From NCBI GenBank assembly GCA_014189685.1, contig DVAB01000042.1, positions 1 to 28,365 on the forward strand: a DNA stretch of 28,365 nt, in the 5' to 3' direction. Shown here piece by piece: positions 3,796 through 26,359 of the stretch. Under the pieces are notes generated by a model. That model was not told the DNA's origin. It saw only the letters and a list, made by a program, of their open reading frames with translations, and searched no databases. The first letter of the stretch is position 1, and the number at the start of each line of letters is the position of its first letter. The DNA comes from Candidatus Naiadarchaeum limnaeum (GTDB taxonomy: Archaea > Undinarchaeota > Undinarchaeia > Undinarchaeales > Naiadarchaeaceae). The translations under genes were made by a program, and so were the position numbers.

Positions 3796-4959
3796 CTACT
3801 TTACCCCTGCTTCTTTAGCAAGAGTTTCTGCTAAATCCGTTTTTTCCCATGTAAATTCTGGTTCGTTTCTTCCGAAATGTCCATAGGCTGCTGTTTTTCT
3901 GTAAATTGGCCTTAACAAATCAAGTTGTTGAATTATTAGTCCTGGGTTCCAGTTAAAATGCTTTATAACAAGTTCCCTTATTTTATCATTTGGAACCTTC
4001 CCTGTATGATGTGTATTAATGTTTACAGAAAGGGGATCCTTTGCTGCGATGGAATAAGCAATTTGTACTTCACATCTGTCTGCAAGTCCGGCTGCAACTA
4101 CATTCTTTGCCGCATATCTTGCCATATAACTTGCTGCGCGGTCAACTTTTGTAGGATCTTTTCCACTAAATGCTCCGCCACCATGTCCTCCTATGCCACC
4201 ATATGTATCAACTATAACTTTTCGGCCAGTGCACCCTGAATCTGCTACCGGCCCTCCGTTTACAAATCTGCCTGTGTAATTTATGAAGTACTGTGTTTTT
4301 GGGTTAAGGTAATCTCCGCAAACTGGCTCAATAACATATTTCTTTATATCTTCTCTTAATTTATCAAGTTCCACATCCGGATCGTGCTGGGCTGCAACAA
4401 CAACCGCATCAATTGATTCTGGCTGTCCATCTTTATAGTGCCCTGTAACCTGTGATTTTCCATCAGGCCTTAGATATGATAGCACTTTCTTTTTTCTGAC
4501 TTCAGCAAGCTTCAACACAAGCTTTGTTGCCATTGAGTGTGAAAATGGCATAAACTCCGGGGTCTCATTTGTTGCATAACCAGTCATCATTCCCTGGTCT
4601 CCTGCTCCTTGCTCCTTAGTTCCTGTTACGCGGACTCCCTGTGCTATGTCTGGGGACTGCTCGTGGATTGATGTTAAAACACCGACAGTATTTGCATCAA
4701 ATCCATATTCAGGCCTGTCATAACCAATCTGTTTTATAACATCTCGGACTAATTTATCAATATTAACATAGCCTTTTGTAGTAATTTCTCCTGTAACAAT
4801 TACAAATCCCATTCCAACCATGCATTCGCAGGCGACTCTTGAGTATTTATCCTGCCTTAAGAGTTCGTCTAAAACACTATCAGAAAGCTGGTCGCAAACT
4901 TTATCTGGATGACCTTCTGTAACAGATTCGCTTGTATAATGAAACTTTTTTTCAGCCAT
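3796..4959 (-). CDS. metK: S-adenosylmethionine synthetase, bacterial-type MetK
   Basis: This 387-residue enzyme makes S-adenosylmethionine from ATP and methionine. Hallmarks are [20 protein letters not shown] near residue 8, the central [24 protein letters not shown] block (P-loop-like, substrate binding) and a C-terminus with FTWEKTD. These are features of bacterial/eukaryotic MetK. The divergent archaeal MAT family, usual in archaea, lacks them, so the gene was probably acquired by transfer. The ATG at 4959 is chosen over an upstream in-frame ATG at 5022 because it matches the family N-terminus and follows a GGGGGT ribosome-binding site (4966-4971, six bases before ATG). The upstream start would also lie beyond the probable transcription start. 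Its promoter region is shared with an HTH-CBS regulator. Confidence 0.96.
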
Positions 4960-4965
4960 GTATTT

Positions 4966-5058
4966 ACCCCCATAAAGCTTTCTTTTTGTTTGAGAAATAA
5001 GGTTTAAATACCTTTTTGGCACTAATATTCCTATTAGAATAAAAGTATTTAAATTTAT
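4966..5058. promoter_or_regulatory. metK: Divergent metK / HTH-CBS promoter region
   Basis: On the minus strand GGTATTTAAACC (5001-5012) is a TATA-like box predicting a start near 4980 and a leader of about 20 nt containing the GGGGGT site (4966-4971) of metK. On the plus strand TATTTAAATTTAT (5046-5058) is centred 27 nt before the ATG at 5079, so the regulator mRNA is probably leaderless. Between them 5025-5040 holds CTAATATTCCTATTAG, a near-palindrome (CTAATA/TATTAG arms) that could be an operator. Confidence 0.5.
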
Positions 5059-11619: not shown

Positions 11620-12333
11620 ATGGGCGTTCCAATCCCGAAATTTGTAAAGCAAATTTATTGGAGATTCAAGGAAAAGTTTCAAGCTGACCCGAGAAGGCTC
11701 GAAACACTAAAAAAGCTTGATCTCATAGCTGTTGGTTTTGCAAAACGATTAGAAAAGGGAGATATAAAAAGCGCATTTAGGATTTTAGAGAATCAACTAG
11801 GTGAGCCAGCAGCTGCTTTTTTGCATATCTACGAATTAAGGGTGGCAGCAGCCAAAAATGATGGTGAGGGGATGCTAGAGGCACTTGCGAAAAACTTAGA
11901 ACAGGCTGGCGCGCACGAAGAAGCAAGATTTTTGCGCAACAGACGTATTTCGCCAGAGGAAAGGCTTAAGAAAGTGGCTGAACGGGCAGAACAAATTAGA
12001 AAACAGTTAAAAAAAATTCCAGAGTACTCAGAAATTTTTCAAGAGCATATATCTTACGAAGTCGAATCTTTTCAGAGAGCAGGACATATAGGATTTTCTG
12101 TACTTACGATAAGCTATATAAGTGGTATTTTTTATGCGTCTTTTGCTAAATTGCAATCTGTTACCTCGGGACGCATAGTTAAATCTACCGAAGAGCTTAA
12201 CAGAATTTTAGAAGGGAAACTAGCGGAAGCAGATCCGACCGGCGGAGTTGTAATTGCGCTTACATTAATAACAGTCGCAGTTGTTGGATTACTATATTTT
12301 AAATCAAGAAAAATTTCAAAGCGATGGGGCTAG
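11620..12333 (+). CDS. Membrane protein with helical cytoplasmic domain, unknown function
   Basis: A 237-residue protein I do not recognise. Residues 1-145 are basic and helical, with a possible helical-repeat feel (LEKGDIKSAFRILENQLGEP; LHIYELRVAAAKNDGEGMLE; LAKNLEQAGAHEEARFLRNR), as in TPR-like folds. A moderately hydrophobic stretch (about 153-172) and a clear transmembrane helix (208-226, VVIALTLITVAVVGLLYF) follow, ending in a basic tail KSRKISKRWG. With both spans in the membrane, the N-terminal domain and tail would both be cytoplasmic. It is convergent with metG, overlapping it by 4 bp. The neighbourhood gives no firm clue to function. Confidence 0.75.
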   Translation: MGVPIPKFVKQIYWRFKEKFQADPRRLETLKKLDLIAVGFAKRLEKGDIKSAFRILENQLGEPAAAFLHIYELRVAAAKNDGEGMLEALAKNLEQAGAHEEARFLRNRRISPEERLKKVAERAEQIRKQLKKIPEYSEIFQEHISYEVESFQRAGHIGFSVLTISYISGIFYASFAKLQSVTSGRIVKSTEELNRILEGKLAEADPTGGVVIALTLITVAVVGLLYFKSRKISKRWG

Positions 12334-13934
12334 GTACTTTTGATTTCTATCTTTTGTATAATCGGCTTAATATGCAAAGCAATTTTCTGTCCAGCTTTTA
12401 CTTTTTCCTTTGCGCACTCCCATTTAAGCTCATCAAAAGCTCCTTTGTGCCCGAGTTGTGAATGAATTTTTAAAGCTGTCTCAGGCAGGAATGGGAGAAG
12501 CAAAATTGCTATCGCATGAACAAGATTTGCAGTAACATAGATTGTTGTTGCCTGAGTTTCCTTATTTTTCCACGGCTCCTTTTCGTTAAAATAAACGTTT
12601 CCTGCGCGTGCTAATTCCATTATTGCCTTTAAACCTTCCAAAAAGTTAAATTCCTCAATTTTTTGAGCAACTATTTTTTGCGTTTCTGCTATTTTTGCAA
12701 AAATTTTTTTGTCCTTTTCATCTAATTTTCTGGGTTTAGGAATAGTTTTGTAGAAAAATCTTTGAATAAAAGTCAAAGTTCTATGCACAAAATTCCCCAG
12801 AACATCTGAGAGCTCATTGTTTATGCGTGCCTCAAATTCTTTCCAGGAAAAATCCATGTCTGTCGCAAGAGGAGAGGTTATTGTTAAATAATATCTCAAA
12901 TAATCCGCAGGGTATTTCTTTAAAAAATCTGAGACCCATACAACCCAACCGCGCGAAGTACTCATCTTTTCCTTTTCCAAAGTAAGATACTCACCAGCGA
13001 TTATTGTATAAGGCAATTTGTATTTTCCATGCGCAATCAGCATTGCAGGCCAAAAGAGTGCGTGGTGGTAAATAATGTCTTTTCCAATAAAGTGAATTAT
13101 ATTTCCGTTTTTCCAATAGCTTAATCCATTTTTCTTATCCCACTCCTGTGTTGCGCTTATGTATCCAATCGGCGCATCCCACCAGACATACAAAACTTTG
13201 TTCTCTGCTTCAGGAAGAGGTACTTTCACCCCCCACTCCAAATCTCGAGTTATACACCAGTTTTGCAAATTTTCTGTCCAGCTAAGAGCATAATTTTTTA
13301 CATTGGTTGGCAGTTCTTTCCTGCTTAAAAATTTCTTTAGCTGCTCCTTAAACACTGTTAGCTTGAAAAACCAGTGCTTTGTACTTTTTAACTCAGGAAT
13401 GCTCCCGCATATTATACAATGTGGATTATCTAAAGTTCTTAAAGCCTGTGCACATTTTTCACAGTGATCCCCGCGCGCACCTTCAAAGCCGCAATTAGGG
13501 CAATTGCCTTCAACATATCTATCTGGCAAAAATCTTTTGTTGGTATTGCAGTAATACTGGTCAACATCCTGCGCATAGATATAGCCTTTTTTATGCGCCT
13601 CCAAAAAGAATTCCTGTGCGTTCTTATGATTTAATTTAGTTGAAGTCCGCGAAAAAATATCAAAATCAATTTCTAAATCCTTTAACTCCTGTTTCATTAT
13701 CTTATGATATTTTGTAGCAACTTCTAAAGGAGTGGTTTTTTCTTTCTCTGCTGTTAAAGTAATTGGGGTTCCATGCTCATCCGAACCGCAAATAAATGCA
13801 ACATCCTTTCCGTTCATCCGCAGATAGCGTACATAGATATCAGCTGGCAAGTAAGTTGACCTTATGTGGCCTGCATGCAAAGGCCCGTTTGCATAGGGCA
13901 GAGCACATGTAACAAGAATTTTTTCTTTTGGCAT
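12330..13934 (-). CDS. metG: Methionyl-tRNA synthetase
   Basis: A 534-residue class I aminoacyl-tRNA synthetase that charges tRNA-Met. It shows the HIGH-type motif HAGH (20-23, in PLHAGHIRS), the zinc knuckle region with Cys pairs at 145/148, 158/161 and 173/176, the active-site YVWWDAPIGYISATQEW region (249-265) and KMSTS (323-327). The helical anticodon-binding domain follows. The separate C-terminal EMAP/Trbp111-type tRNA-binding domain present in many longer MetRS proteins is absent, which is common for shorter archaeal forms. A TATA-like box at 13954-13962 gives a leaderless transcript. The 3' end overlaps the preceding convergent gene by 4 bp. Confidence 0.97.
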   Translation of the reverse strand: MPKEKILVTCALPYANGPLHAGHIRSTYLPADIYVRYLRMNGKDVAFICGSDEHGTPITLTAEKEKTTPLEVATKYHKIMKQELKDLEIDFDIFSRTSTKLNHKNAQEFFLEAHKKGYIYAQDVDQYYCNTNKRFLPDRYVEGNCPNCGFEGARGDHCEKCAQALRTLDNPHCIICGSIPELKSTKHWFFKLTVFKEQLKKFLSRKELPTNVKNYALSWTENLQNWCITRDLEWGVKVPLPEAENKVLYVWWDAPIGYISATQEWDKKNGLSYWKNGNIIHFIGKDIIYHHALFWPAMLIAHGKYKLPYTIIAGEYLTLEKEKMSTSRGWVVWVSDFLKKYPADYLRYYLTITSPLATDMDFSWKEFEARINNELSDVLGNFVHRTLTFIQRFFYKTIPKPRKLDEKDKKIFAKIAETQKIVAQKIEEFNFLEGLKAIMELARAGNVYFNEKEPWKNKETQATTIYVTANLVHAIAILLLPFLPETALKIHSQLGHKGAFDELKWECAKEKVKAGQKIALHIKPIIQKIEIKST

Positions 13935-13953: not shown

Positions 13954-13962
13954 CTATATTAA
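13954..13962 (-). promoter_or_regulatory. metG: TATA-like box for metG
   Basis: TTAATATAG on the minus strand is centred about 24-25 nt from the metG ATG at 13934. It directly abuts the 17-bp element at 13964-13980 that serves, or marks, the divergent gene at 14045. Confidence 0.45.
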
Positions 13963-13963
13963 T

Positions 13964-14044
13964 TGTTTTTGATTTTGAAAATCCCCTCCGAAGCAAATTA
14001 TAAGCTATATTTTTATATCACTGCGACCACTTAATAGTTCTAGA
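13964..14044 (+). promoter_or_regulatory. Duplicated upstream region, copy 1
   Basis: The 17-mer TGTTTTTGATTTTGAAA (13964-13980) starts 81 bp before the ATG at 14045. A TATA-like box TTTTTATATC (14010-14019) and the 18 bp directly before the ATG (14027-14044) follow. The same 17-mer occurs at 16414-16430, 88 bp before the next paralogous gene, and the last 18 bp agree at 14 positions. Confidence 0.6.
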
Positions 14045-16411
14045 ATGACTGAAGAAGGTGGTTGGGTAAAATATGCAGTAATTGGGATAATTGGAATAAT
14101 TGGTATTGTTGCTGTTCTGGTTTTAACAGGTATAATTGAGATCGAAGCTCCTTCTGCTCCGTCCACTGGGCCAAGCCAGGGTGGGAGCGCGTTTGGGGGA
14201 CTTGGAGGATTAATTCTTATTCCAATTGTTATTATACCAATTTTTATTATTTCTAAATTATTAAGCGGGATATTAAAAAAGCCAGAGAAACCCTTACCGC
14301 AACCGAGAGCAGAGATGGCAATGGCGCATATAGAAGTGAAACAATTTGAGGAAGACCCACAGACAAAAGAAAAGCCTCCTCTGGTAGGTGCTAAGATTCA
14401 CTATAAAAATTTAGATGATCCTAGATTAGAGGGGCGCGGAACTAGTAAAGAAGGCGGTAAATGCATCCTTGAGTTTCCTTCTGGAAAGTATAGACTGAAT
14501 GTTGGGCATGATGACTATCACCCTGATACACTAGTAACCTATTTCAGAGCAGGGGAAAATCCTGGGCTTCACTTCTTCTTAAAAAGCAAAACACCTCCAG
14601 CAGTAGTTGCAGCACCTCCTCCGGCTCCAACACCTGCGCCACCTCCAGTAGTTACCGCACCTACCCCAGCTCCGGCGCCAGCCACAACTGCACCAGCAGC
14701 AGTGCCTCCTTCACCACCAACGCCCGAGGAATTTGAGATACAAATTTTAGAGCCAAAGAACCGAAAGATAGAGAGGAAATTATTTTCGGGAGAAATGCTG
14801 CCGCCAGGTGAAAGTGTAAAGGTAAGAGTATATGCTAAGGTGAAAAAGGAGGGGGTTAAAGATGCTTCTGTTACATTTACTGCTTCAGGGGATGCAACAA
14901 TAGGTGGTGAGGTAGTTGTTAAGAAGCTCACTGATGAGGAAGGAGTAGCTATAATAGAAAATCTAACACTGGGAATAGCAGAAAAGAAGAGACTGGACAT
15001 AGAGGCGGAGGTAGAGGGGCGAAGATTAGTGCCAGAAACCATTCCAATAATTGTTGATGTAAAAATACCAACAATTGAAATAGTACGCACAGATGCTAAA
15101 AAAGATAGCGAAATCGATCTGAGGGATCCAGCTCAACAAGTGGAGGTAACTATTACTGTTAAAGATGGAAAAGGCGAACCAGTTCTCAATAAAAGTTTAG
15201 AAATAACTTACCAGAAATTTGCGGAATTTGGAAAGGCTGGAGAAAAAATTGCAACAGAAGAAACAACTAATTCGAATGGTAACCTTGAGATTTCATATAG
15301 GCCAGGGCCGCAATCTGAAAAAATGCTTGGAAATAGCATTCTGAAAGTTCACTACGAACCGCTATTTGGGGTAGATGTGTCTAAAAAATTGCAAATAAAA
15401 CTCGTGAAGCCAGAAAAGCCCCCTGAGCTTAAATTAATTGAATTGAAGGAAGCGAAAACAGAGGCCAAGCGCTCATTTACTGAAGAGGACCCAGAAATAT
15501 TATTTCTCTTTAGGAGAATTTACCAGGGCCGAGATCTAAAGGGTAGACTTAAAAGGGTTCCATCAAAAGACTTTGAAAAAAAGATTGAGGATTACGAAAA
15601 AATATTTGATGAAATTTCTAAATTTTCTGTTACGAAAATTGCAGACGAAAAATGGAAGCTGGCATACAAATATGAAGCACTAGAATATCTAGTTAATGAG
15701 TATATAGAGAATGGCATTAAAGTAAAAATTGAAAATGAGGGCAGAAATATACTCTCATATGAGATTTCTGTAAACTTTGCTCAACTCCTAGAGATGGATG
15801 AATTGAAGAGCGTTGTGATAGGAGCTGATAAAGAACTTGGGTTTGAAAGCTTACAAACTCAAAATAAAGTAAGTTTTTTAGAAGATTTCTTTAGTATGGT
15901 TAGTGATTATTTATCAAAAAGCGGAATTAAGATTGTGGACAAGGAGTTAATTCCTGTTATTGCTGCGTATTTTGTAATTATTCTGAGGGAGGACATAATT
16001 AAAGGAGACGGTGGCAAATATAAGAATATTAAGGATAGTATAGAAAAAGGGGGGAATATCTTTACTGCTTTAAGCCGGCTTGAAACTGGCTTTCTACTAG
16101 ATTTTTTAAAAAACATTGAAAGAAAAAAGGATAAAGTTAGCGGAATGATAAAAGAGCAACAAAACATTTTAACAGACGCACTTAAGACTATAGCTGAAAT
16201 TTATAACCGCAATACTATTCATAGCGAAATTAAAGCCCTTGATATGCCAGGTGTTAAGAAAAGTGAGCAAAAAATAATAAAGGAATTCCTTCAGAGAGCT
16301 TTTGATGCTATATTTTTCTGTAGTTTGGAGGCGCATATTGCAAACCTAAAAGTTCTGCTTGCAATAATTTACACTCTGTATGAACCGCGGGGATTGATGG
16401 TGGTTGATTAA
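14045..16411 (+). CDS. Membrane-hairpin protein with Ig-like domains and long helical C-terminus
   Basis: A 788-residue protein of unknown function. Two hydrophobic helices (about 9-32 and 54-74) flank a short Pro/Ser/Gly loop with APSTGP; the basic stretch after the second helix (KLLSGILKKPEKPLPQPR) implies that the large remainder is cytoplasmic. Residues 95-180 resemble a carboxypeptidase-regulatory-like beta domain (VGAKIHYKNLDDPRLEGRGT, SGKYRLNVGHDDY). A Pro/Ala-rich linker (183-228) follows, then two Ig-like segments (about 229-340 and 345-455). The last 310 residues are helical, with no recognised domain. It is the first member of a three-gene set; residues 1-45 closely match the next gene's product and even the promoter is similar. 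With the KaiC-like gene downstream, a scaffold or sensor role is possible; this is inference. Confidence 0.82.
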   Translation: MTEEGGWVKYAVIGIIGIIGIVAVLVLTGIIEIEAPSAPSTGPSQGGSAFGGLGGLILIPIVIIPIFIISKLLSGILKKPEKPLPQPRAEMAMAHIEVKQFEEDPQTKEKPPLVGAKIHYKNLDDPRLEGRGTSKEGGKCILEFPSGKYRLNVGHDDYHPDTLVTYFRAGENPGLHFFLKSKTPPAVVAAPPPAPTPAPPPVVTAPTPAPAPATTAPAAVPPSPPTPEEFEIQILEPKNRKIERKLFSGEMLPPGESVKVRVYAKVKKEGVKDASVTFTASGDATIGGEVVVKKLTDEEGVAIIENLTLGIAEKKRLDIEAEVEGRRLVPETIPIIVDVKIPTIEIVRTDAKKDSEIDLRDPAQQVEVTITVKDGKGEPVLNKSLEITYQKFAEFGKAGEKIATEETTNSNGNLEISYRPGPQSEKMLGNSILKVHYEPLFGVDVSKKLQIKLVKPEKPPELKLIELKEAKTEAKRSFTEEDPEILFLFRRIYQGRDLKGRLKRVPSKDFEKKIEDYEKIFDEISKFSVTKIADEKWKLAYKYEALEYLVNEYIENGIKVKIENEGRNILSYEISVNFAQLLEMDELKSVVIGADKELGFESLQTQNKVSFLEDFFSMVSDYLSKSGIKIVDKELIPVIAAYFVIILREDIIKGDGGKYKNIKDSIEKGGNIFTALSRLETGFLLDFLKNIERKKDKVSGMIKEQQNILTDALKTIAEIYNRNTIHSEIKALDMPGVKKSEQKIIKEFLQRAFDAIFFCSLEAHIANLKVLLAIIYTLYEPRGLMVVD

Positions 16412-16413
16412 AA

Positions 16414-16501
16414 TGTTTTTGATTTTGAAATTCTTTTCAGAATAGACCTATCAAAGCTTAAAAATCTTTAAATATGTTCACGCCCACTATATAGTTGTAA
16501 A
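16414..16501 (+). promoter_or_regulatory. Duplicated upstream region, copy 2
   Basis: TGTTTTTGATTTTGAAA (16414-16430) begins 3 bp after the preceding stop and 88 bp before the ATG at 16502. A TATA-like box CTTTAAATAT (about 16466-16475) follows, and the last 18 bp (16484-16501) match copy 1 at 14 positions. An own promoter for this gene is therefore likely. Confidence 0.6.
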
Positions 16502-18535
16502 ATGGCTGAAGGCAGTTGGGCAAAATACGCTGTAATTGGGATACTTGCTATAATAGGTATTGTTGCTGCTTTGGTTTTGTTTGGCGTTGTTGAATTGCCC
16601 GCTACAACTGCTCCGTCCACTGGACCAGGTGATGGGGGATTTCAGGAAGAGCCTGGGGATTTATCATGGATTTTTGTTCTGATATTTGTTGTTCTATTAA
16701 TTGGAGGTTTGTGGAAAGGTGGAAGAGCAATTGCAACTTGGCTAAGAAGGCGCAGGGGTGAGGCAAGAAGAGTTAAAGAAGAGGTTGCTGCAAAAGTTTC
16801 TTCAAAAGATTATGGTCGAGTGAGCGGAACTGTTCTCTCATCCAATATGCAAAAAACTGGAAACCCATTTCCACCTGATGGAGCAAAAGTTATTTTTAAA
16901 AATAAAGTAACAGGCGAAGAGTCGTTTGCTATGGTTAATAAAAAAGGAGAATATACAAAACCGCTCCCGCCCGGCTCTTATGATGCGTTTGTTGCTGATA
17001 TGAATATTTCTATAGGCCCAGAAAACTATAGAATTCATAAAACTTCTGGGGTGGATGTTGAAAAGTTGGATGTAGAGGTACTTAAAAGAAGAGAGACAGT
17101 AGCTAATTTTACAGTAACAACAGACGCGGTTTCTGCTCAAGCACAGGCTGCAACAGCTCCAGTAGCTGCCCCTCTAGCTGCTTATAGTATTACAGCAGAA
17201 ACAACCCCTCCTGACCTCACAAATATCAATGCAGGAAGCCAGGTTTCGATAAAATATATTGTGCTCAAAGGCGACGATCCTGCAGATGGGATAAAAATAG
17301 ATTTCACAAAAAGTGGCCCAACAGGAATAGCTCTGAATAGAACAAATACAGACACAAATCCTAGTGGAGAGGCAGGCGTCCAATTAACAACCTCAAAAAC
17401 GCCAGGGGAAATCATAGTTGAAGCCCGTGCAAAAGATCCAACAGGAAAGGAAATAAGCCCATATCCATTAGCTGTGAGAGTTGCAACAAGAGGAGCTCTA
17501 ATTTTAAATATTAAAATTACGGATAATGATAGGCCTGCAAATGTGATAAAGCCAAAGGATCCTGTTTACGAAGACATGAGATTAAAAGTCATAGTTTGGG
17601 TTAGTGATGAGAAAAACAATAAGGTTGCTCAAAAAGTTCGTATAAAAACAGATGACACTGAGCACTCAATTTCTGATCACGATATTTGGAACATCCCAGA
17701 TAATGGCCAATTGGAAATTCCCTCTGTCACAAGCCTTCCAGATCCTTTTAAGCCAAAAAATGTTAAGACTCCACAGCTGCTGATAAAAGCTGTTTATGAA
17801 GGGACAAATCATCCACTCCCTGCAAGAAGATGGGTAAGCGATGATATTAATGAAGCACAGCCACTTGCTCCAGAGAATGGGGTATACAAACTCAGCTTTA
17901 AGATTGAAAAAATAAAAGCAAAAGGAAGGCCAAAAACTTTTGAGAAAGCAGAAGAAGCTATAATACCTGCGCATTTACAAGACCCACCATTGAAAATAGT
18001 TATATTTGAAAAATTTAAAAGACGAGGAAGCCCACCACATCACTCAGGCAGATTTTACCTTTCAAGTTATCTGAGGAAGAGACATATTAGTGGAGAAAAT
18101 GTAATGATTGCGCTCTTAACAAACCCTGACCCTGGCTTAATTGGTCCTCCTGAGAAAGGCGGTTATCGGCTTCCAGCAGGAAACGAAGCGAAGTATTTAT
18201 GGATAACTGATAAAGCAAGACGCCGCCCAGAATACGTTGATCCAGACGATATAATTAATGAAGATGATATTGAAAAACTCAGGGACAAAATAAATGCATT
18301 TTTCACTGAAAAAGGAGAAAACGCTGTTGTTTATATTGAAACTTTTAAAACAGTTGAAAAAAAGGGCGATGGCCCAGTAATTAGAATGCTCAAAGATATA
18401 GTTGGTCAAAGCGCCATTTTTAAGGGGATCTTTTTAATTAATTATGGCAAACAAGCAGGAGAAATTACCTTAGCATATGAAAAGGAATTGCGAGAGTTGG
18501 CTACAAATGATAAGTGCATAGTTGAGTGGTATTAA
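16502..18535 (+). CDS. Membrane-hairpin Ig-like protein with DUF835-like C-terminal domain
   Basis: A 677-residue paralogue of the preceding protein at its N-terminus (GSWAKYAVIGILAIIGIVAA, loop APSTGP). Two membrane helices (about 8-31 and 55-71) are followed by KGGRAIATWLRRRRGEARR, so the bulk should be cytoplasmic. Residues 105-205 are a carboxypeptidase-regulatory-like beta domain; 228-328 and 332-440 look Ig-like, the second sharing a pattern with the repeats of the next protein. Residues 515-665 (GRFYLSSYLRKR, VMIALLTNPDPGL, KYLWITDKARRRPEYVDPDD, AVVYIETFKTV, FKGIFLINYG) resemble the archaeal DUF835 domain, thought to be related to KaiC-type ATPases without catalysis. I rate that match moderate. 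The next gene follows directly, so the two are probably one transcript. Confidence 0.82.
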   Translation: MAEGSWAKYAVIGILAIIGIVAALVLFGVVELPATTAPSTGPGDGGFQEEPGDLSWIFVLIFVVLLIGGLWKGGRAIATWLRRRRGEARRVKEEVAAKVSSKDYGRVSGTVLSSNMQKTGNPFPPDGAKVIFKNKVTGEESFAMVNKKGEYTKPLPPGSYDAFVADMNISIGPENYRIHKTSGVDVEKLDVEVLKRRETVANFTVTTDAVSAQAQAATAPVAAPLAAYSITAETTPPDLTNINAGSQVSIKYIVLKGDDPADGIKIDFTKSGPTGIALNRTNTDTNPSGEAGVQLTTSKTPGEIIVEARAKDPTGKEISPYPLAVRVATRGALILNIKITDNDRPANVIKPKDPVYEDMRLKVIVWVSDEKNNKVAQKVRIKTDDTEHSISDHDIWNIPDNGQLEIPSVTSLPDPFKPKNVKTPQLLIKAVYEGTNHPLPARRWVSDDINEAQPLAPENGVYKLSFKIEKIKAKGRPKTFEKAEEAIIPAHLQDPPLKIVIFEKFKRRGSPPHHSGRFYLSSYLRKRHISGENVMIALLTNPDPGLIGPPEKGGYRLPAGNEAKYLWITDKARRRPEYVDPDDIINEDDIEKLRDKINAFFTEKGENAVVYIETFKTVEKKGDGPVIRMLKDIVGQSAIFKGIFLINYGKQAGEITLAYEKELRELATNDKCIVEWY

Positions 18536-18545
18536 TTTTAAAAAA

Positions 18546-20300
18546 ATGGCAACTGAATTTGGAAAAATAGTTTACCAAGCTTATATAATTAACTTGGGGG
18601 ACATTGAGGTAAAAAACCTGATTTTAAAGATTAGAAATCAGGAAACGGGTAAATTCATAACAGAAAGAGTGAGTGAGGATGGAATTGCGGTTCTACCTGG
18701 TAAATATGAGGTATTCATTCCTACTGACCAAACGGTTATCGATCCGCCTATTAAGGAAAGTGAAATTGCAATCGAAGAGAGTCCTAAAAAAAGTTTTACT
18801 GTTGAAGCCGAAGAGCAAGTTAATCTTTTATTCAGAATAAATGTAAAGCAAGAGCGTTCAAAAGGAGTGCCACCTGAGAGTTTCACTGAAAGAAGAGAAG
18901 CAAGTGCTGAAATCATAGCTAGGGGAAAGTTGACAGCGGCTCCCCTTGTTGAAACAAGAAAGGTTGCACGGAAAAAATTAACAATGCTAGTTAGAGTATC
19001 ATATCAAGAAACTGGGAAAAAGATTGAGCCTGAAGAGGATATCGAAGAGGGTACAAAATTAGTAATTCATGTTATAATTTTCGATGAGCTGTCACGGAAA
19101 GTTGATCATCCTGCTAGATATAAATTATTAGACCAGGAAAATGAAGGTTGGGAAGGTGAAGTAAACACCGAAGGCAAAACAGCAGAGATACAAGATTTTA
19201 TTCCTAGTGCTTCAGATGATCCTCAGATAAAAATAGTTTCTTACTACCCAGGGACAAAAGAACCAATAGTAAGTGGCGAATTGTCATTCCATGTAAATAT
19301 TATCAAGAAAAAACTAAGATTAAGCGTCGATATACTAAATGCTGTTACAAATGAGGGAATTAATGCTGAGAAAGACATTCTTAAAGAGGGGCAGAAGATA
19401 AAGGCTACAATTGGGACATTTGATGAAGACGGCACCCCTGTTGACCATATTGTAAATTATACTATAATCGATGCAAAAGCAGAGCCAATTAAAAGGAAAG
19501 ATAGCACTTTTGTAGACAATAGGCCCCTTGTAATAGAATTCATTCCATCGCCAGTAAAGTCTGGACATCAGCTTATCGTAGAAGCTTCGTATAAAGATGG
19601 AAAACCGTTAGAAAATAGTCCTGTTAGAATTCATTTTCAAATAGAGGCAGCTAAAGGGGAAGCTGAAATAGTTGCTATGCTGGAGAAGAAAGAACAAGTT
19701 ATTACAAGAAAAACACCCGATACTCTCGGCGATGCAATGATAGAGGTTTTTCAACCTGAGCATCTTAAACCTCCGATGAGGATAGCTATTTTTGAGGAAA
19801 AGACGCTCCGTGCTCCATATAAAGGTGGAAGACTTTATCTTTCAGCCTTTTATAAGTCAGGTGTTTTAAGTAAGCTAATAGCTAAAGCTCCGCGAAACAT
19901 GATGATTGCTTTAACATCTCCTCCAATACGTGAAGTGTTGTATGGAAAATATGGCCTGCCCGAAGCTGGTCCAAGAAATAATATATTAATATGTAATACA
20001 AACAATACTTTTGCTGATTATGCTGTTGTTCGTCCATCAGAACGAGATATAGTGGTGTCAAGAATTAAAGGATTTATTAACTTCCATAAAGAAAAAGCAA
20101 TAATATACCTTGAATCTTATGAGTATATTAATAAAAATGGTTTGCCTTCGATAGTGCAATTAATAGAAAAAGTTGCAGGAGAAGATTTTAAGGGAATCTT
20201 TATGTTGAATATAGGATTCAGCCTTAAAGATATAGAAAAACAGCCAGGAATTGCTGATAGAATAAAAAAATGGGCAAATTATATTATTGATTTACGATAA
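18546..20300 (+). CDS. Soluble tandem Ig-like protein with DUF835-like C-terminal domain
   Basis: A 584-residue protein without signal or membrane segments, so cytoplasmic. Residues 1-95 resemble the carboxypeptidase-regulatory-like domain of its neighbours (LKIRNQETGKFITERVSEDG, LPGKYEVFIP). Two homologous repeats follow, near 143-196 and 256-309: KLTMLVRVSYQETG...DIEEGTKL...FDELSRKVDHPARYKLLD and KLRLSVDILNAVTN...DILKEGQK...FDEDGTPVDHIVNYTIID. Residues 427-575 look DUF835-like, with MMIALTSPPIREVLYGKYGL, AIIYLESYEYINKNG and FKGIFMLNIG in family order. I chose ATG 18546, 10 bp after the upstream stop; a TTG at 18522 inside that gene would add eight residues. It probably partners the membrane-bound paralogues. 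Confidence 0.82.
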   Translation: MATEFGKIVYQAYIINLGDIEVKNLILKIRNQETGKFITERVSEDGIAVLPGKYEVFIPTDQTVIDPPIKESEIAIEESPKKSFTVEAEEQVNLLFRINVKQERSKGVPPESFTERREASAEIIARGKLTAAPLVETRKVARKKLTMLVRVSYQETGKKIEPEEDIEEGTKLVIHVIIFDELSRKVDHPARYKLLDQENEGWEGEVNTEGKTAEIQDFIPSASDDPQIKIVSYYPGTKEPIVSGELSFHVNIIKKKLRLSVDILNAVTNEGINAEKDILKEGQKIKATIGTFDEDGTPVDHIVNYTIIDAKAEPIKRKDSTFVDNRPLVIEFIPSPVKSGHQLIVEASYKDGKPLENSPVRIHFQIEAAKGEAEIVAMLEKKEQVITRKTPDTLGDAMIEVFQPEHLKPPMRIAIFEEKTLRAPYKGGRLYLSAFYKSGVLSKLIAKAPRNMMIALTSPPIREVLYGKYGLPEAGPRNNILICNTNNTFADYAVVRPSERDIVVSRIKGFINFHKEKAIIYLESYEYINKNGLPSIVQLIEKVAGEDFKGIFMLNIGFSLKDIEKQPGIADRIKKWANYIIDLR

Positions 20301-20367
20301 TTGTTAGGGTCCAGTTAATTCCTTGCGCAATCCAACTGTTTTTAAGTAAGCTTTTAAATTGCTTATC

Positions 20368-22230
20368 TTACAATTGCCCATGTTTCTTTAAATTTTTCAG
20401 CAACTCTTTGTATAATTCTTCCGTCTCAAGCTTTGCCCTTAGCTGCCAGAATTTTTTTGGCCTAAACAAATAAACATCTTTTACCCCTAGATCCCAGAGC
20501 CAGCCATAGAGTATGTACAATGTGCTAATTGCATATGCTAAGATACTTCTTAAAAATTCCATTCTTGTTTTGATCAAATTATCCGCACTATTTTTTAACA
20601 CTTCTACAGCTTTTTTAGCTTTTTTAAGAGCTGCTTCTGCCCTTGAAGCATTTCCTTTCATTTGAGTAAGGTTTCTTTCTGCATTTTGAATTTCTAGTTG
20701 TGCATTTCCAACACTTTTTTTTGCAGCTGTAAGCTCTAACTGAGTATGGGGCTTGTTCTCTGTAATCTTCAATTTCTTCTTATTTGTAGAATGAGTAACT
20801 TTTGCGCGATCCAAGCGTATCTTGGCTGCTGCTAAATTATTATTAGTCGTATCTAAATTTCTTTGTGCGTTACTCCTCACCGATTTAGCATCCTCCGTAG
20901 CAGCATCATTATTTTCCCTATCCGTCTCAACATTTTTGAGACCATTAACTGATCTTGCTAACTCGCTTAATCGCCCAATCTGTTTTTCCGAGCCCTTAAG
21001 ATATACATAATACCATGCTATCTTTTTAAACTTGATATTAGGATCTGATTCAAGTCTATTAGCCAACTTTATTATGGCAGCGTTTATTTCCCGAATAAGC
21101 TTACTCCCAAGCTCATTTAACTTCTTGACATCCTCTGTCAAGCTTTTGAGCGCGCTTATAGCTCCGTTCCTTTCCGCAAGTAATCTCTCACGTTCTAGAC
21201 CTTTGCTCTCCATATCCTTTGCAGTTTTGAATACATCCCCAATTTCGTGTATTAATTTATCAACATCTCCAATGTCATGAACTCCACTCAGTGTTCTTAG
21301 GCTTAACTCAATACTGAGCAATCTTTCTGCAAAAGTTCTTTGATCGCTCAAGCTTAAACGTAATTTTTTAATTGCTTCTGTATATTTCTTTATCAATTCA
21401 ACTGCCTTTGGTATGCCAAGCAAAATTTCAAATTCAACTAAAGTTATTGTCATAATTATTAGTTTTTTATTTTCAGGTGCATCTGGCATATCCAGTAGGC
21501 CAAGTAAAGCATCCTTTAAACCCTTTTTTGCATCACGATCAAGATATTTAAAAGGGATAAGCTCTTTTCTTATAAGGTCGTCAATCTTTTGTTTCAAAAA
21601 TGGTATGCCAAGTATCTCAAGCTGTCTAAGCCTATCTACTATTTCAGGAGTTTCCACTACTACCTTTGGTGCAAGCAAAACAGGTGGAGGTGGCAGAGGA
21701 GATGGCGGAGCAGGAGCAGCCTCAATTGGAACAGCTTCAAGAAGTGGTGCAATTATATACTCTAAATCAGAGAGAACTTGTTCTGTTGCTTGCTCTGGGT
21801 CTATTGTTACGAGCAAGATAACTGGTGCTTTTTTAACTTTGCCACTTAAGTAGTCAATATGCGATACTAATTCATCTGGTGCGCGATCATATGCATTATA
21901 AATTAAATTCAAATCTATTAAAATAATCGTATTTTCTTGCGAGCGCATTACACTTAAAGAAATATCTCCAAACTCGCCAGGAGTCATTTCGCCTTCGGCT
22001 TTCTTTTCTCTAGTGAAAAGAACGAATGTAATTCTCTCTTTATGCTTATTTAACTCGCGAAACTCCTTCAAAAGATCTGTGCGATTTTTATTGCTATAGA
22101 TAACTGCTTTAAATCCCTTCTCTAAAAGCTTTATTAGAATAGTTATTGCGCCTTTAAGCGTTTTGTCTTTTTTAAGATAAGTGCCACCAATTTCTACTTG
22201 TCCATTAACATCTATTTTTTCAGGACTCAT
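20368..22230 (-). CDS. DUF835-like / coiled-coil protein with C-terminal hydrophobic helix
   Basis: A 620-residue protein of unrecognised family. Residues 1-165 are alpha/beta and resemble DUF835 or a degenerate KaiC fold (VEIGGTYLKKDKTLKGAITI, FKAVIYSNKNR, NTIILIDLNLIYNAYDRAPD, PVILLVTIDPE) with no Walker A loop. A Pro-rich linker (169-190, including LPPPPVLLAPK) leads to helical segments (195-425), then a long Ala/Lys/Asn-rich coiled coil (about 435-556). A hydrophobic helix (561-582, SILAYAISTLYILYGWLW) and a basic tail follow. If that helix spans or lies on the membrane, the coiled coil would stand at its inner face. It is convergent with the Ig-like genes and divergent from the KaiC-like gene, sharing an 87-bp promoter region with it. 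Confidence 0.8.
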   Translation of the reverse strand: MSPEKIDVNGQVEIGGTYLKKDKTLKGAITILIKLLEKGFKAVIYSNKNRTDLLKEFRELNKHKERITFVLFTREKKAEGEMTPGEFGDISLSVMRSQENTIILIDLNLIYNAYDRAPDELVSHIDYLSGKVKKAPVILLVTIDPEQATEQVLSDLEYIIAPLLEAVPIEAAPAPPSPLPPPPVLLAPKVVVETPEIVDRLRQLEILGIPFLKQKIDDLIRKELIPFKYLDRDAKKGLKDALLGLLDMPDAPENKKLIIMTITLVEFEILLGIPKAVELIKKYTEAIKKLRLSLSDQRTFAERLLSIELSLRTLSGVHDIGDVDKLIHEIGDVFKTAKDMESKGLERERLLAERNGAISALKSLTEDVKKLNELGSKLIREINAAIIKLANRLESDPNIKFKKIAWYYVYLKGSEKQIGRLSELARSVNGLKNVETDRENNDAATEDAKSVRSNAQRNLDTTNNNLAAAKIRLDRAKVTHSTNKKKLKITENKPHTQLELTAAKKSVGNAQLEIQNAERNLTQMKGNASRAEAALKKAKKAVEVLKNSADNLIKTRMEFLRSILAYAISTLYILYGWLWDLGVKDVYLFRPKKFWQLRAKLETEELYKELLKNLKKHGQL

Positions 22231-22253
22231 TACATTAATTAATGTACAAAGTA

Positions 22254-22295
22254 GTATAAAAGTAATTTCCTCATGCGAAAAAAGATATAAATATA
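22254..22295. promoter_or_regulatory. Divergent promoters: coiled-coil gene and KaiC-like gene
   Basis: TTTTATAC on the minus strand (22254-22261) is centred about 27 nt from the ATG at 22230. ATATAAATATA on the plus strand (22285-22295) is centred about 28 nt from the ATG at 22318. Both transcripts look leaderless, and the shared region suggests coordinated expression. Confidence 0.5.
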
Positions 22296-22317
22296 ATGAT
22301 ATCTATATTAAAAAACG

Positions 22318-23583
22318 ATGGCGTTTGAAAAAGACCTGTTCCATGTACAAAAAGATGAGGTAGCTGCTAAAGAACTTGTAGGTGGAAAAGAAGAAAAAAA
22401 TGTCCCAACTGTTTATATAATTTGTGGGTCGCCTGGAAATTGGAAATCTACTTTTACTCTCAGTCTTATGGTGAACTACTTGAAAGAGGCTAAAGGTGAA
22501 TATGGCCTTTATTTCACATTTGAACAACGAACCAAATCTCTGCGATCCTCTTTTGGAGAAATTACAGAGATTAATTTAGATAAGATAAACAACTTTAAAA
22601 TGATAGATATAGCTCGAGGAAGGGAAGAGAGACAAACTACGATAATTAGAGATGCTATGGAAAAAATTAATGCAATTGATGAAGAACTTGCAGTTCTTAG
22701 TGATGTTTTTTCACGATTAGTGGAAGGTGTAAAAGAACTCCCTGTTGAGGAGAGAAAAGAGATTGAGCCGAAAGTCCCGGATGAGTTCCTTCAAGAATTG
22801 AGAAAAGAAGGTATTCCACCAGAACTTCTGCAACAATTCACAAAAGGGGCATTAGTCGATGTTACAGAAGAGCAGGTTGACAAGCTCAACAGAATAGTGC
22901 GCGATGTATTCAATAAAAGGCTTGATAAAGATAGGAGCAGGATGGAAAAAATAGATGGGCTTATTGAAACAGCCAATGAAGGATTAAAGAAATTAAAGGC
23001 AGATGCAGATGGTGCTAAAAAAGCAAAAGATGAAGTGCAATATAAGATGTTGAGCAAATTGCATGAGGGTCTTAAAGTTAGAATAGCAAGAGCGAAGGAG
23101 TTGAGGAAAGAGAGAGAAGGTCTTGTGAAAAAAGCAGAGGACGGCTTAGAAGAAGTGGAATTCAATTGGCCTGAACTAATTTATGGGATGATATCAAAAT
23201 TCAGGGGTTATGGAAAAAACGTTACTCTAATAGCTGTTGACTCATTGGCAGGCCTTTATACAGCAACTGGAATGTTCCCAGCGCCAAACACTAGAGCAGT
23301 CGTGCATAAAATTTTCGACAGATTAAGAGAGCTTGAGGTAAGAGCACTTCTTGTTGCAGATATACCTAAGTGGGAAAACGAGCCGGCAAACCTATATGAT
23401 GATGAGGACTTTCTTGCTGATGCAGTAATGGGGGTTGGGTTAAATATATTAAAAAAGGAGAAACAAAGGTATGTTCGTATTAAGAAGCATAGATTTTATG
23501 ATCACTCACATGATCGATATAGACTTGAAATTATGAAAAAGTATGGGGTTGTTATAAAGGGCTATTTGCCGCCCGTTGCATAA
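22318..23583 (+). CDS. KaiC-family ATPase with coiled-coil insertion and atypical Walker A
   Basis: A 421-residue RecA-superfamily protein of the archaeal KaiC/RAD55 group. Residues 31-75 give the P-loop strand and IICGSPGNWKST, then GLYFTFEQR, where Glu69 corresponds to the catalytic Glu region of KaiC. The Walker A Gly before Lys43 is replaced by Trp42. The core is then interrupted by about 180 residues (roughly 103-283) of charged helix with strong coiled-coil character. It resumes at WPELIYGMISKFRGYGKNVT with Walker B LIAVDSLAGLYT (Asp308), VRALLVADIPKWE and FLADAVMGVGLNILKKEKQR, then IKKHRFYDHSHDRYRLEI as in KaiC ends. Lys43, Ser44 and Thr45 remain, so ATP binding is plausible but hydrolysis uncertain. 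nurA follows after 32 bp, the coiled-coil gene is divergent. Confidence 0.85.
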   Translation: MAFEKDLFHVQKDEVAAKELVGGKEEKNVPTVYIICGSPGNWKSTFTLSLMVNYLKEAKGEYGLYFTFEQRTKSLRSSFGEITEINLDKINNFKMIDIARGREERQTTIIRDAMEKINAIDEELAVLSDVFSRLVEGVKELPVEERKEIEPKVPDEFLQELRKEGIPPELLQQFTKGALVDVTEEQVDKLNRIVRDVFNKRLDKDRSRMEKIDGLIETANEGLKKLKADADGAKKAKDEVQYKMLSKLHEGLKVRIARAKELRKEREGLVKKAEDGLEEVEFNWPELIYGMISKFRGYGKNVTLIAVDSLAGLYTATGMFPAPNTRAVVHKIFDRLRELEVRALLVADIPKWENEPANLYDDEDFLADAVMGVGLNILKKEKQRYVRIKKHRFYDHSHDRYRLEIMKKYGVVIKGYLPPVA

Positions 23584-23615: not shown

Positions 23616-24764
23616 ATGGAACTTGAAACAGAACTAAACAAACTAGCCCAAAATATAAAGGCCCTAGAGCATCAGCGCTCTTCATTAGGAGAGGCGCTTA
23701 AAAAAATTAAGGCACAAATAGAATTCCCAAAAAGAGATTCGGATATTATTGAGGATAAGTTTGTTACAAAAGTTAAGCCAGATGAATTAAAAAATTTAAA
23801 AGTAGCAGCTGTAGATGGCGGAATTGTCCAGACAAAATTGCACGGAGTAAACTTGGTTGTTGGCCGCGCAGCCGCGGTTGTTTTTGATTTTAAAAATGGA
23901 GTTCTTTTTAACACGAATTATTATCCGGATGCTTTTCCAAGTCACCAGCTGCTTTCATTTAATGCACCAATAACAGATAGAGATTACGCTATTTCGATTT
24001 CATTAAACAGGCAAATAATGGAAATATCTACTGCAGAAAAAGTTGTTTCTAATTTCTCCCCAGAATTAATGCTCTTGGACGGGAGTGTTTTGCCATTGGC
24101 TATGGACAAGCCTGAAAAAAATTCACCAGAATTTAAGAGATATGAAAATTTGATTCAAACCTACTTGAGCTTATACAGAACTTGCTCGAAAAAGAAAACC
24201 CAGCTTGCAGGCGTAATAGAGGATTCAGGCGGGTTAAGGCTTACAACTTTGCTGAAAGAAAAAGTAGTTCCGGGGGTAATCCAAAGCTCTGAGTTTGACG
24301 GCGGAATTGTTGATGTTCTGGAACAAAATAAGAGTATTTTAGAAAATACAAACGATAGCAATGTAATATTTTACATTTTAGATGTTGGCGAGCGCACTTG
24401 TGTCTATTCTTATTCTGCAGATCCTGAAAAACACCAAGTCTTAAAGGATTTAGAGGATTACGGTGGAAAAATTTTCTCGTTTTACTTAAAAACAGTTCCA
24501 TTTGATCGGCCGATTAGAATTGATTTCGTTTCAGAATCTGATATGCAGGAAAAGATTACAAAAATCGCAAATGATATTGCTTCAAAAGTTCTGGCAATGA
24601 GCATGCACAATGAGACTTATGGATTCCCAAGCATCTTAATTGAGGCAGACGGTCGCGCAAGGCTTTCTGAGCGCGATTTGGATTTGATTTATCATAGATT
24701 AAAGGATAAGGTCGGGGATTTGCCGAGTTTGTTTAAATTGCGCCGAGAGTTAAGACCATTTTAA
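23616..24764 (+). CDS. nurA: NurA 5'-3' nuclease
   Basis: A 382-residue member of the NurA family, the nuclease that works with the HerA translocase to resect DNA ends in archaeal double-strand-break repair. It shows the catalytic AAVDGG motif (Asp67 in LKVAAVDGGIVQTKLHG), a second acidic motif ELMLLDGSVLPLAM (Asp154), and IEDSGGLRL and C-terminal YGFPSILIEADGRARLS, the conserved late block. It starts with a helical stretch (1-60). herA follows 47 bp downstream with its own TATA-like box, the usual archaeal pairing; mre11 and rad50 are not in the window. The KaiC-like gene ends 32 bp upstream and may be co-transcribed. Confidence 0.88.
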   Translation: MELETELNKLAQNIKALEHQRSSLGEALKKIKAQIEFPKRDSDIIEDKFVTKVKPDELKNLKVAAVDGGIVQTKLHGVNLVVGRAAAVVFDFKNGVLFNTNYYPDAFPSHQLLSFNAPITDRDYAISISLNRQIMEISTAEKVVSNFSPELMLLDGSVLPLAMDKPEKNSPEFKRYENLIQTYLSLYRTCSKKKTQLAGVIEDSGGLRLTTLLKEKVVPGVIQSSEFDGGIVDVLEQNKSILENTNDSNVIFYILDVGERTCVYSYSADPEKHQVLKDLEDYGGKIFSFYLKTVPFDRPIRIDFVSESDMQEKITKIANDIASKVLAMSMHNETYGFPSILIEADGRARLSERDLDLIYHRLKDKVGDLPSLFKLRRELRPF

Positions 24765-24790: not shown

Positions 24791-24811
24791 AAATACTAGT
24801 TATTTTTGGTG

Positions 24812-26359
24812 ATGGAATTCGTAGAAATAGGAACTGTAGTAAGCAACACAGAAGGCCCGACACCCTCACAATTTGATTTTGTTGTAAAGGATAATGGCGC
24901 AAAAGTTAGAAAGGGGCAATTTGTTGAACTAGAAACAGACGAGGGCCGCTTAGTAGGCAGAATCGAAGATATTTTCAAGGCAAACAGATATTTTGAGCGA
25001 GCTGAAAGTGTAAGGGAATATGAAAAAAACAAAGATATGAGTTCTATTTTTCCAGTGGACAGATGGGAATTTACAGTTGCGCGTGCAAAACCATTGGGAA
25101 TTATGGCAAATCCAGGAACACTCAAGCCAAGTTTTCCGCCTTCTCCTGGAGAAAAAGTTTTTTTAGCAAGCGAAGATGTGCTTCCAAAATTTCTTGGACT
25201 GGATGAAAACGGAATTAACCTTGGAACAATAGAGCATCATGATATTGAAGTAAAAATTAATTTAACAAAGCTTTTGCAGAAACATCTTGCAATCCTTGCT
25301 ATGAGCGGCGCAGGAAAATCATACTTTACTAGCATTTTAATTGAAGAGCTTTTGGAACGGCAGAAAAAATACGGAAGAGTTGGAGTTGTTCTAATAGATG
25401 TACACGGAGAATACACTAGTTTTGCAGAGCCTGTGAAAGCTGGCGATAAATGTATAGATTACAGCAAAAAGTGCGCGCATATAAATGGGGTTAATATCCG
25501 AATTGGAATCTCAAATATGAGCGCCGAGCAATTAATGTATTATATGCCAAACATGAGCGCCATACAGAGGAGAGAATTGGCAAAAGTTTTCGATTCATTT
25601 AAAAGAAAAATGAAAAAAGGCGAGGGAACTTTTAATTTAGATGATATAATTAAGGAAGTTGAAGAAACAGATTTGATAAAAAAACAGGCAACTAAAGAAA
25701 GCCTGATTGGATGGCTTTATGATGCGAACAAAGACACTATTTTTTCAGATACTGATTATCCGAATTTGCGAACTCTTGTTAAGCCGGGGCATCTCTCAAT
25801 AATTGATTTAAGCGGAATTCTTGGGAGCAGGAGAAAACAAATAATAGTTTCGCATCTTGCACGCGAACTTTTCAACATGCGCCGCAACAATCAAATTCCA
25901 CCATTTTTATTGGTTATCGAGGAGGCGCATCAGTTTGTTCCAGAAGGAGTTAAAAGCGAGTATGCGCTTGCAAAAAGCATAGTTGAACAAGTAGCCCGCG
26001 AAGGAAGAAAGTTTCATGCTTCTGTCTGTTTAATATCTCAAAGGCCAAAAAGATTGAGCACAACTGTTCTCTCGCAATGCAATACGCACATAATAATGCG
26101 TGTAACTAATCCTTATGATTTAGACCATATAAAACAGAGCTCAGAGGGAATTACACAGAGTGCATTGGATTCAATAAGCACCTTGCCAGTTGGGGAAGGT
26201 TTAATTGTTGGCGAGGCAGTTAATCATCCGATTTTTGTAAAAATTAGAAAAAGAAAATCCCAAGAAAGTACAAAAGGAATTGATTTGGAAAAAGCTGCTC
26301 AAAAATTTGAGGAAAAAATGGAAGCGCGCTCAAAAGATGCAGAGGCGTTTTTCGGATGA
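24812..26359 (+). CDS. herA: HerA-type DNA translocase/helicase
   Basis: A 515-residue hexameric FtsK/HerA-type ATPase that pumps DNA to NurA during end resection. The N-terminal HAS-barrel (residues 1-95) is followed by Walker A AMSGAGKS (163-170), VVLIDVHGEY (192-201), the inserted helical region (235-310), Walker B LLVIEEAH (366-373), and the arginine-finger region VAREGRKFHASVCLISQRP (394-412) with HIIMRVTNP after it. Length is typical. It lies directly after nurA and overlaps the next gene by 4 bp (ATGA), so translation of the two is probably coupled. Confidence 0.95.
   Translation: MEFVEIGTVVSNTEGPTPSQFDFVVKDNGAKVRKGQFVELETDEGRLVGRIEDIFKANRYFERAESVREYEKNKDMSSIFPVDRWEFTVARAKPLGIMANPGTLKPSFPPSPGEKVFLASEDVLPKFLGLDENGINLGTIEHHDIEVKINLTKLLQKHLAILAMSGAGKSYFTSILIEELLERQKKYGRVGVVLIDVHGEYTSFAEPVKAGDKCIDYSKKCAHINGVNIRIGISNMSAEQLMYYMPNMSAIQRRELAKVFDSFKRKMKKGEGTFNLDDIIKEVEETDLIKKQATKESLIGWLYDANKDTIFSDTDYPNLRTLVKPGHLSIIDLSGILGSRRKQIIVSHLARELFNMRRNNQIPPFLLVIEEAHQFVPEGVKSEYALAKSIVEQVAREGRKFHASVCLISQRPKRLSTTVLSQCNTHIIMRVTNPYDLDHIKQSSEGITQSALDSISTLPVGEGLIVGEAVNHPIFVKIRKRKSQESTKGIDLEKAAQKFEEKMEARSKDAEAFFG

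Follow-up and report, generated by a model that had tools for sequence, protein, structure and literature searches.

What is encoded between the methionyl-tRNA synthetase gene metG and the DNA-end-processing pair nurA-herA in Candidatus Naiadarchaeum limnaeum (Undinarchaeota), and is it a system centered on a KaiC-family ATPase, as a first-pass annotation of this DNA proposed? The window analyzed here is the whole stretch of 28,365 nucleotides (nt) of contig DVAB01000042.1 (assembly GCA_014189685.1, positions 1 to 28,365), from a source genome (G000) of 0.98 Mb that is 98% complete. The five neighboring genes first described, P1 to P5, are all present at 14045-23583, and the cluster reaches beyond this interval, since P5 is followed by NurA and then by HerA. 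Comparison within the phylum shows that the constant element is the slot itself, that is metG, a membrane hairpin protein and nurA-herA, and not the KaiC. The genes of the slot and its borders are the following (aa, amino acids).

12330-13934, minus strand: metG, left border of the slot; 63-69% identity to the other five phylum genomes, a hairpin gene adjoining each time
14045-16411, plus strand: P1, 788 aa; membrane hairpin, CarboxypepD_reg-like, Ig-like (Big_1) and helical C-terminal domain
16502-18535, plus strand: P2, 677 aa; membrane hairpin, CarboxypepD_reg-like, Ig-like, DUF835-like C terminus
18546-20300, plus strand: P3, 584 aa; soluble, region paralogous to the Ig-like part of P2, DUF835-like C terminus
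20368-22230, minus strand: P4, 620 aa; N-terminal DUF835-like domain, then a helical and coiled-coil region
22318-23583, plus strand: P5, 421 aa; KaiC-family ATPase with helical insert (PF06745, E=2.8e-20)
23616-24764, plus strand: NurA nuclease (PF09376, E=2.4e-15), the genome's only NurA match
24806-26359, plus strand: HerA translocase, HAS barrel and DUF87 (DUF87 E=1.8e-33); an in-frame ATG also at 24812

The slot between metG and nurA-herA

The phylum sample consists of six genomes from four families of one order, the phylum being sparsely sampled; five of the six are 75-86% complete, and absences there are weak evidence. Searches by tblastn and profiles are, moreover, liable to overlook proteins that diverge as fast as those of the slot. 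A gene for a hairpin protein adjoins metG in all six genomes, and the hairpin charges in the phylum relatives put the large domain inside the cell. In G001, which belongs to the same order as the source genome and to another family, the slot reads metG, hairpin, hairpin, a protein X, a DUF835 protein, KaiC and nurA-herA. This order spans two contigs. On C162, metG (minus strand) is joined by two genes for hairpin proteins, one for a helical protein, one whose product has a DUF835-like end, and a KaiC gene cut by the contig edge, of which the C-terminal half is present. C111 opens with a KaiC N-terminal half, of the inserted type and on the matching strand, followed by nurA and herA. From type and orientation we infer that the two halves are one gene, the Walker B stretch lying in the gap. 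A KaiC adjoins NurA in G001 as it does in the window. MetG of G001 is 69% identical to that of the window, and its KaiC halves and HerA align; against P1 to P3, G001 gives nothing that BLAST can align. The first-pass annotation expected the gene set to co-occur in other genomes, and a neighborhood survey found it again in this second family.

Three further genomes hold the slot in another form. In G003 the hairpin gene, X, nurA and herA follow one another with gaps of 34, 44 and 33 nt and are succeeded by DUF63, and in G004 the gaps of the hairpin-X-nurA run are 31-38 nt. DUF63 stands beside HerA in G003, G004 and G005, with a DUF63-like end beside HerA in G001 (L090); past herA and DUF63 lie a Rad50-like gene in G004 and both Rad50-like and Mre11-like genes in G005. 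We found no KaiC in G003 to G005 other than RadA/RadB-like proteins, and no DUF835 match. The idea of a KaiC-centered system therefore survives in part: the KaiC and DUF835 set recurs in G001, but G003 to G005 keep the hairpin slot without either component. In G002 the contig ends past the hairpin gene.

The congeners G003 and G004 reveal an exchange within the slot. From metG through the hairpin-coding part, to about codon 128 (segment position 2744), their DNA is about 90% identical; a sharply bounded block of about 2.4 kb follows that has only short patches of about 60% and no similarity along its full length; at about position 5175, 28 nt upstream of the nurA start, 89-94% identity resumes. 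The swapped block covers the cytoplasmic part of the hairpin protein (H) and all of X, and the encoded proteins follow suit: MetG is 93% identical, NurA 96%, HerA 94% and DUF63 91%, against 41% for H and 27% for X, while the cytoplasmic part of H is 30% identical in the comparison with G005. G004 and G005 share one allele (about 94%). H and X are also related to each other within a genome (47% in G003, 31% in G004, 34% in G005), and those of G003 are closer to each other than to their counterparts in G004 and G005 (26-30%). The cassettes are AT-richer than their flanks in G003, G004 and G001. Horizontal acquisition of the window block, judged by GC, was rejected, as there is no contrast with the flanks.

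Exchanged cassettes with co-varying paralogues are typical of conflict or recognition loci and less so of housekeeping hubs. Such a swap is unexpected in a housekeeping sensor hub or motor, and the first proposal is not supported as the whole story; by its exchanged cassettes the locus is more like one of biological conflict than like a simple signaling switch.

Hairpins and DUF835-like domains in P1 to P4

Within the first four proteins and upstream of P1, the following parts were distinguished (TM, transmembrane segment).

13961-13992, plus strand: upstream repeat of P1; 81% match to 16411-16442 upstream of P2 (family D2)
14045-14269, plus strand: P1 membrane hairpin, aa 1-75, TM 13-31 and 55-73
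15452-16408, plus strand: P1 C-terminal helical domain, aa 470-788, without family match
17939-18532, plus strand: P2 DUF835-like domain; 95.6% within a three-sequence profile with its paralogues P3c and C39
19719-20297, plus strand: P3 DUF835-like domain, from profile-profile comparison
21721-22230, minus strand: P4 DUF835-like domain, aa 1-170; probability 95.6%, reversed control 0.1%

The hairpins of P1 and P2 are 51% identical across 72 aa (E=7e-16), which bears out the proposal of two paralogous hairpin proteins. A 131-nt DNA repeat (74%) lies in their hairpin-coding parts, at 14054-14184 in P1 and 16508-16638 in P2, and a second repeat pair of 32 nt precedes each start. By the positive-inside rule both hairpins are N-in/C-in, with loop charges of -2 and -4 and charges of +3 and +6 past the second TM. 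Because these charges place both termini inside, the Ig-like parts of P1 and P2 are predicted to be cytoplasmic, in agreement with the first proposal of cytoplasmic Ig-like modules on membrane hairpins. The domain assignments proposed for these parts fared less evenly: the Pfam matches are consistent between P1 (Big_1 E=1.9e-6, CarboxypepD_reg 3e-4) and P2 (CarboxypepD_reg 4e-4, Big_1 2.6e-3) and agree with a strong CarboxypepD_reg match (E=1.9e-27) in the G001 counterpart, but all of those in P1 and P2 are sub-threshold. AlphaFold2 gave a poor, nearly all-helical model of the P1 C terminus (mean pLDDT 39), for which Foldseek returned no match. The C5 match of P1 proved to be proline-rich low complexity and was set aside.

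P3 (584 aa counted from its ATG, 592 aa from an alternative TTG start at 18522) is paralogous to P2 across about 360 aa (E=6e-17) and has no TM segment. Its first description as a soluble protein is thus upheld; Pfam finds neither an Ig-like nor a CarboxypepD_reg match in P3. Downstream of its DUF835-like domain, P4 is helical and partly heptad-patterned in a heptad scan, as expected of the coiled coil first described, but the hydrophobic helix near its terminus falls below the TM score.

Pfam detects DUF835 (PF05763) only at P2 561-616 (E=0.016, 17.4 bits against a gathering score of 33.1). Profile-profile comparison with aligned DUF835 domains of other archaeal genomes gave similarity over the full domain, with probabilities of 95.6% for the combined C-terminal domains of P2 and P3 and the C39 protein described below, 95.6% for P4 1-170 and 73.6% for the G001 counterpart; two further proteins, one of 186 aa on C39 (77%) and one on G001 contig C154 (98.7%), also matched. 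Reversed controls were at most 0.2% for the P2/P3/C39 profile, P4 and the G001 counterpart, and at most 1% throughout. The claim that three of the five proteins carry a DUF835-like segment is borne out accordingly. None of the DUF835-like queries matched a KaiC alignment directly. Close homologues of the DUF835 proteins were found neither across 84,980 GTDB genomes nor in IMG/VR, and profile A2, run over 394 genomes, recovered its three own copies and two weak matches only. AlphaFold2 models of the P2c/P3c domain were too poor (pLDDT 46) and gave no Foldseek match; with the AlphaFold2 models poor, our statements on fold are taken from profiles.

DUF835-like domains also occur elsewhere in the source genome. 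A stand-alone protein on contig C39 (8496-9305, plus strand) joins an N-terminal zinc-ribbon-like CxxC...CxxC segment to a DUF835-like domain (57% identity to the P2 domain) and may serve P2 as a soluble partner or as a decoy; the 186-aa protein of weak DUF835 similarity lies on the same contig (3227-3787, minus strand). In G086 an ATPase of 1147 aa that has TPR-like repeats and matches DUF835 twice (L083 11274-14717, minus strand) is convergent with a KaiC of the xMKS type treated next.

P5 and its relatives

P5 scores 73.1 bits against KaiC PF06745, well over the gathering score of 26.6, in two match pieces that flank an insert, and its assignment to the KaiC family stands. Two features of the protein deserve separate mention.

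22426-22449, plus strand: P5 Walker A, GSPGNWKS; W in place of the canonical G, M or L in relatives
22654-23121, plus strand: P5 charged helical/coiled-coil insert, about 155 aa (about aa 113-268), between the Walker A and Walker B halves, from alignment and heptad scan

P5 thus fails the canonical Walker A pattern GxxxxGK[ST]. In alignments the Walker B VDSL and the EQ pair are kept, as is much of the pattern towards the C terminus, which makes nucleotide binding plausible. In the tree, P5 and a second inserted KaiC of G001 join a clade of GxxGxMKS members with support of 98/93 (91/93 without the G001 protein), both branches being long, and the archaeal xMKS KaiC group is the closest clade found. 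Neither P5 nor P4 has a close homologue in IMG/VR. The solved relatives of P5 by sequence are PH0186, a KaiC, and SSO2452, which we take to be the antirecombinase RadA paralogue among published RadC structures. PMC4080772 counts PH0186 among those structures, along with a RadA paralogue that acts as an antirecombinase, and links Sulfolobus RadC proteins to recombination. These aRadC/KaiC-like RadA paralogues are the closest solved relatives of P5, but P5 has its helical insert and lacks the Walker A glycine.

In G028, a genome of another archaeal family, a KaiC belonging to the P5 clade is encoded upstream of genes for an OB-fold-like protein, Mre11 and Rad50 (C51 5228-11301, minus strand, a run of KaiC, xMKS-type KaiC, OB-fold-like protein, Mre11 and Rad50). 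The neighbors of the xMKS clade point towards break-repair genes, from a few cases that were noticed rather than sampled. Among other neighbors, a DUF63 membrane protein directly adjoins an xMKS-type KaiC in G068 (L085 8679-10212) and G088 (L086 4039-5584). The second inserted KaiC of G001 (C115 8140-9444, minus strand; 434 aa, Walker A GKKGTLKT) adjoins isoprenoid-lipid genes and a glycerol-1-phosphate-dehydrogenase-like gene.

In the window the gap between P5 and nurA is 32 nt and that between nurA and herA 41 nt; scans for sigma-70 promoters and terminators gave no excess over shuffled sequence. A survey of NurA in other archaea (40 regions, 39 of them with a NurA profile match; flanks mostly about 9 kb, 1-2 kb where limited by the contig) found no convincing KaiC near NurA in the 39 neighborhoods, with one marginal match (E=6e-4). 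Farther off in the window, an S-adenosylmethionine synthetase (3799-5022, minus strand) matches the three-domain S-AdoMet_synt Pfam models in this archaeal genome; this three-domain type is usually bacterial or eukaryotic.

What the slot may do

The reading we favor, at a probability of roughly one in three, is that a hypervariable slot encodes a membrane-tethered cytoplasmic complex that acts with or guards NurA-HerA, most likely as a conflict or guard module. The paired hairpins of P1 and P2 would hold the complex beneath the membrane with its domains in the cytoplasm, and the DUF835 domains of P2, P3 and P4, if they are inactive relatives of KaiC, would dock on or co-assemble with a ring of P5. 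These assembly hypotheses are drawn purely from the identity of the domains. PMC5847659 lists DUF835 among inactivated KaiC domains and as fused to receiver domains, so that a complex of KaiC with inactive KaiC is a reasonable expectation. The complex would act with NurA-HerA, the DNA-end-processing machine encoded beside P1 to P5, and its likeliest use would be to sense or guard the processing of DNA ends in the face of viruses or plasmids, since swapped cassettes whose partners co-vary mark conflict loci. The KaiC/DUF835 set of the window would then be one version of the cassette, and the hairpin and X of G003 to G005 another. The guard idea borrows from retron Ec48, which guards RecBCD (PMC8791490, PMC12904381) and has in common with this locus membrane proteins beside an end-processing nuclease and variable cassettes; the locus has no reverse transcriptase, msDNA or homology to the retron, and the likeness is one of analogy only.

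Several observations weigh against this proposal. The equivalence of P1, P2 and P3 to genes of G001 is one of position and architecture, most of these proteins being unalignable between families, and the similarity between the helical domain of P1 and the G003/G004 domain was not significant (E about 0.04), so that homology of the two was rejected. The swap itself was found in a single genus and is carried to the window by analogy. NurA and HerA of the window belong to different subfamilies from those of G001 and G003 (HerA 22% identical, NurA barely alignable); five genomes of family f12 likewise have a NurA of the G001/G003 type, and the neighborhoods read there (L240 and L242 in full, L241 shorter) hold no hairpin-plus-large-domain gene beside NurA. 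A TATA-like stretch precedes nurA in the window, so that its co-transcription with P5 is no more than a possibility. Finally, PADLOC-DB 2.0.0 returned generic HerA models and weak coiled-coil matches only, and no known defense system. PHROGs likewise gave no specific match. The wider proposal, in which a phylum-wide polymorphic locus with a constant cytoplasm-facing hairpin and interchangeable cassettes, coupled to NurA-HerA, would be an unrecognized archaeal guard or defense system, is a tentative one that we put below even odds by some distance.

If the locus were instead a signaling hub, membrane-tethered DUF835 receivers would gate the KaiC ATPase, which would relay a signal, and NurA-HerA would be a mere neighbor. 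The archaeal KaiC/DUF835 hubs (Makarova, Galperin, Koonin 2017; as described in PMC5847659), where DUF835 is fused to receivers, have the KaiC ATPase and DUF835 in common with this locus; three DUF835 domains and one KaiC meet here, and stand-alone DUF835-like proteins, one with a zinc ribbon, are encoded elsewhere in the genome. The locus, however, lacks receiver, PAS and HTH domains, no sensor domain was found in P1 to P5 either, its DUF835 domains sit on hairpin and Ig-like proteins, and its slot lies beside nurA-herA with varying cassettes, whose swapping such a hub would hardly predict. With three hairpin-slot genomes lacking both KaiC and DUF835, we consider a hub doubtful.

If, on the other hand, the hairpins tethered NurA-HerA and an aRadC-like P5 to the membrane so that breaks could be repaired or DNA exchanged, then the proximity of the slot genes to nurA-herA in the window, G001 and G003 to G005 and to the rad50 and mre11 genes of G004 and G005, and the place of PH0186 and SSO2452 among the solved relatives of P5 would all be in keeping. 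End resection by NurA-HerA and its essentiality in Sulfolobus are published (PMC4351679), and the NurA-HerA(-Rad50-Mre11) end-resection cluster meets this slot at its right border, with rad50/mre11 past DUF63; the described cluster, however, is without the hairpin, Ig-like, DUF835 and KaiC genes. Ced/Ted DNA import has small membrane hairpins and, in Ted loci, nearby HerA and Rad50 genes in common with the slot, and NurA-HerA has been proposed to make the strand transferred by Ted systems and so to feed Ced/Ted transfer (PMC9905601). Against such a role, no CedA/TedA-like channel, pilin or second VirB4-like ATPase was recognized in the slot, where large cytoplasmic domains stand instead; P1 to P5 include no protein with 6-7 TM, and HerA is the only DUF87-type ATPase found, Ced/Ted profiles not having been applied. 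Fast cassette exchange would be odd for housekeeping repair, and P5 lacks the Walker A glycine, so that we regard this explanation as unlikely.

About as unlikely is co-location only, in which a recombination-prone slot flanked by two conserved blocks gathers fast-evolving envelope or cytoskeletal membrane proteins that have nothing to do with NurA-HerA, with KaiC as a passenger: metG and nurA-herA are conserved in themselves, P4 interrupts the co-directional run of the window, and P4 and P5 differ in orientation between the window and G001, whose KaiC is divergent from nurA, but the tight co-directional hairpin-X-nurA-herA run of G003, and a KaiC beside nurA in the window and G001 with no convincing case in the 39 other neighborhoods, argue against it.

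Archaea have many KaiC-family ATPases and DUF835 proteins, mostly without known function. This locus brings together a KaiC, three DUF835 domains and hairpin-borne Ig-like rods in the cytoplasm, with a positional tie to DNA-end processing. If that tie is functional, it would give a KaiC/DUF835 assembly a concrete, testable job, and would suggest that in archaea with small genomes the machinery of break repair stands under an exchangeable module bound to the membrane.

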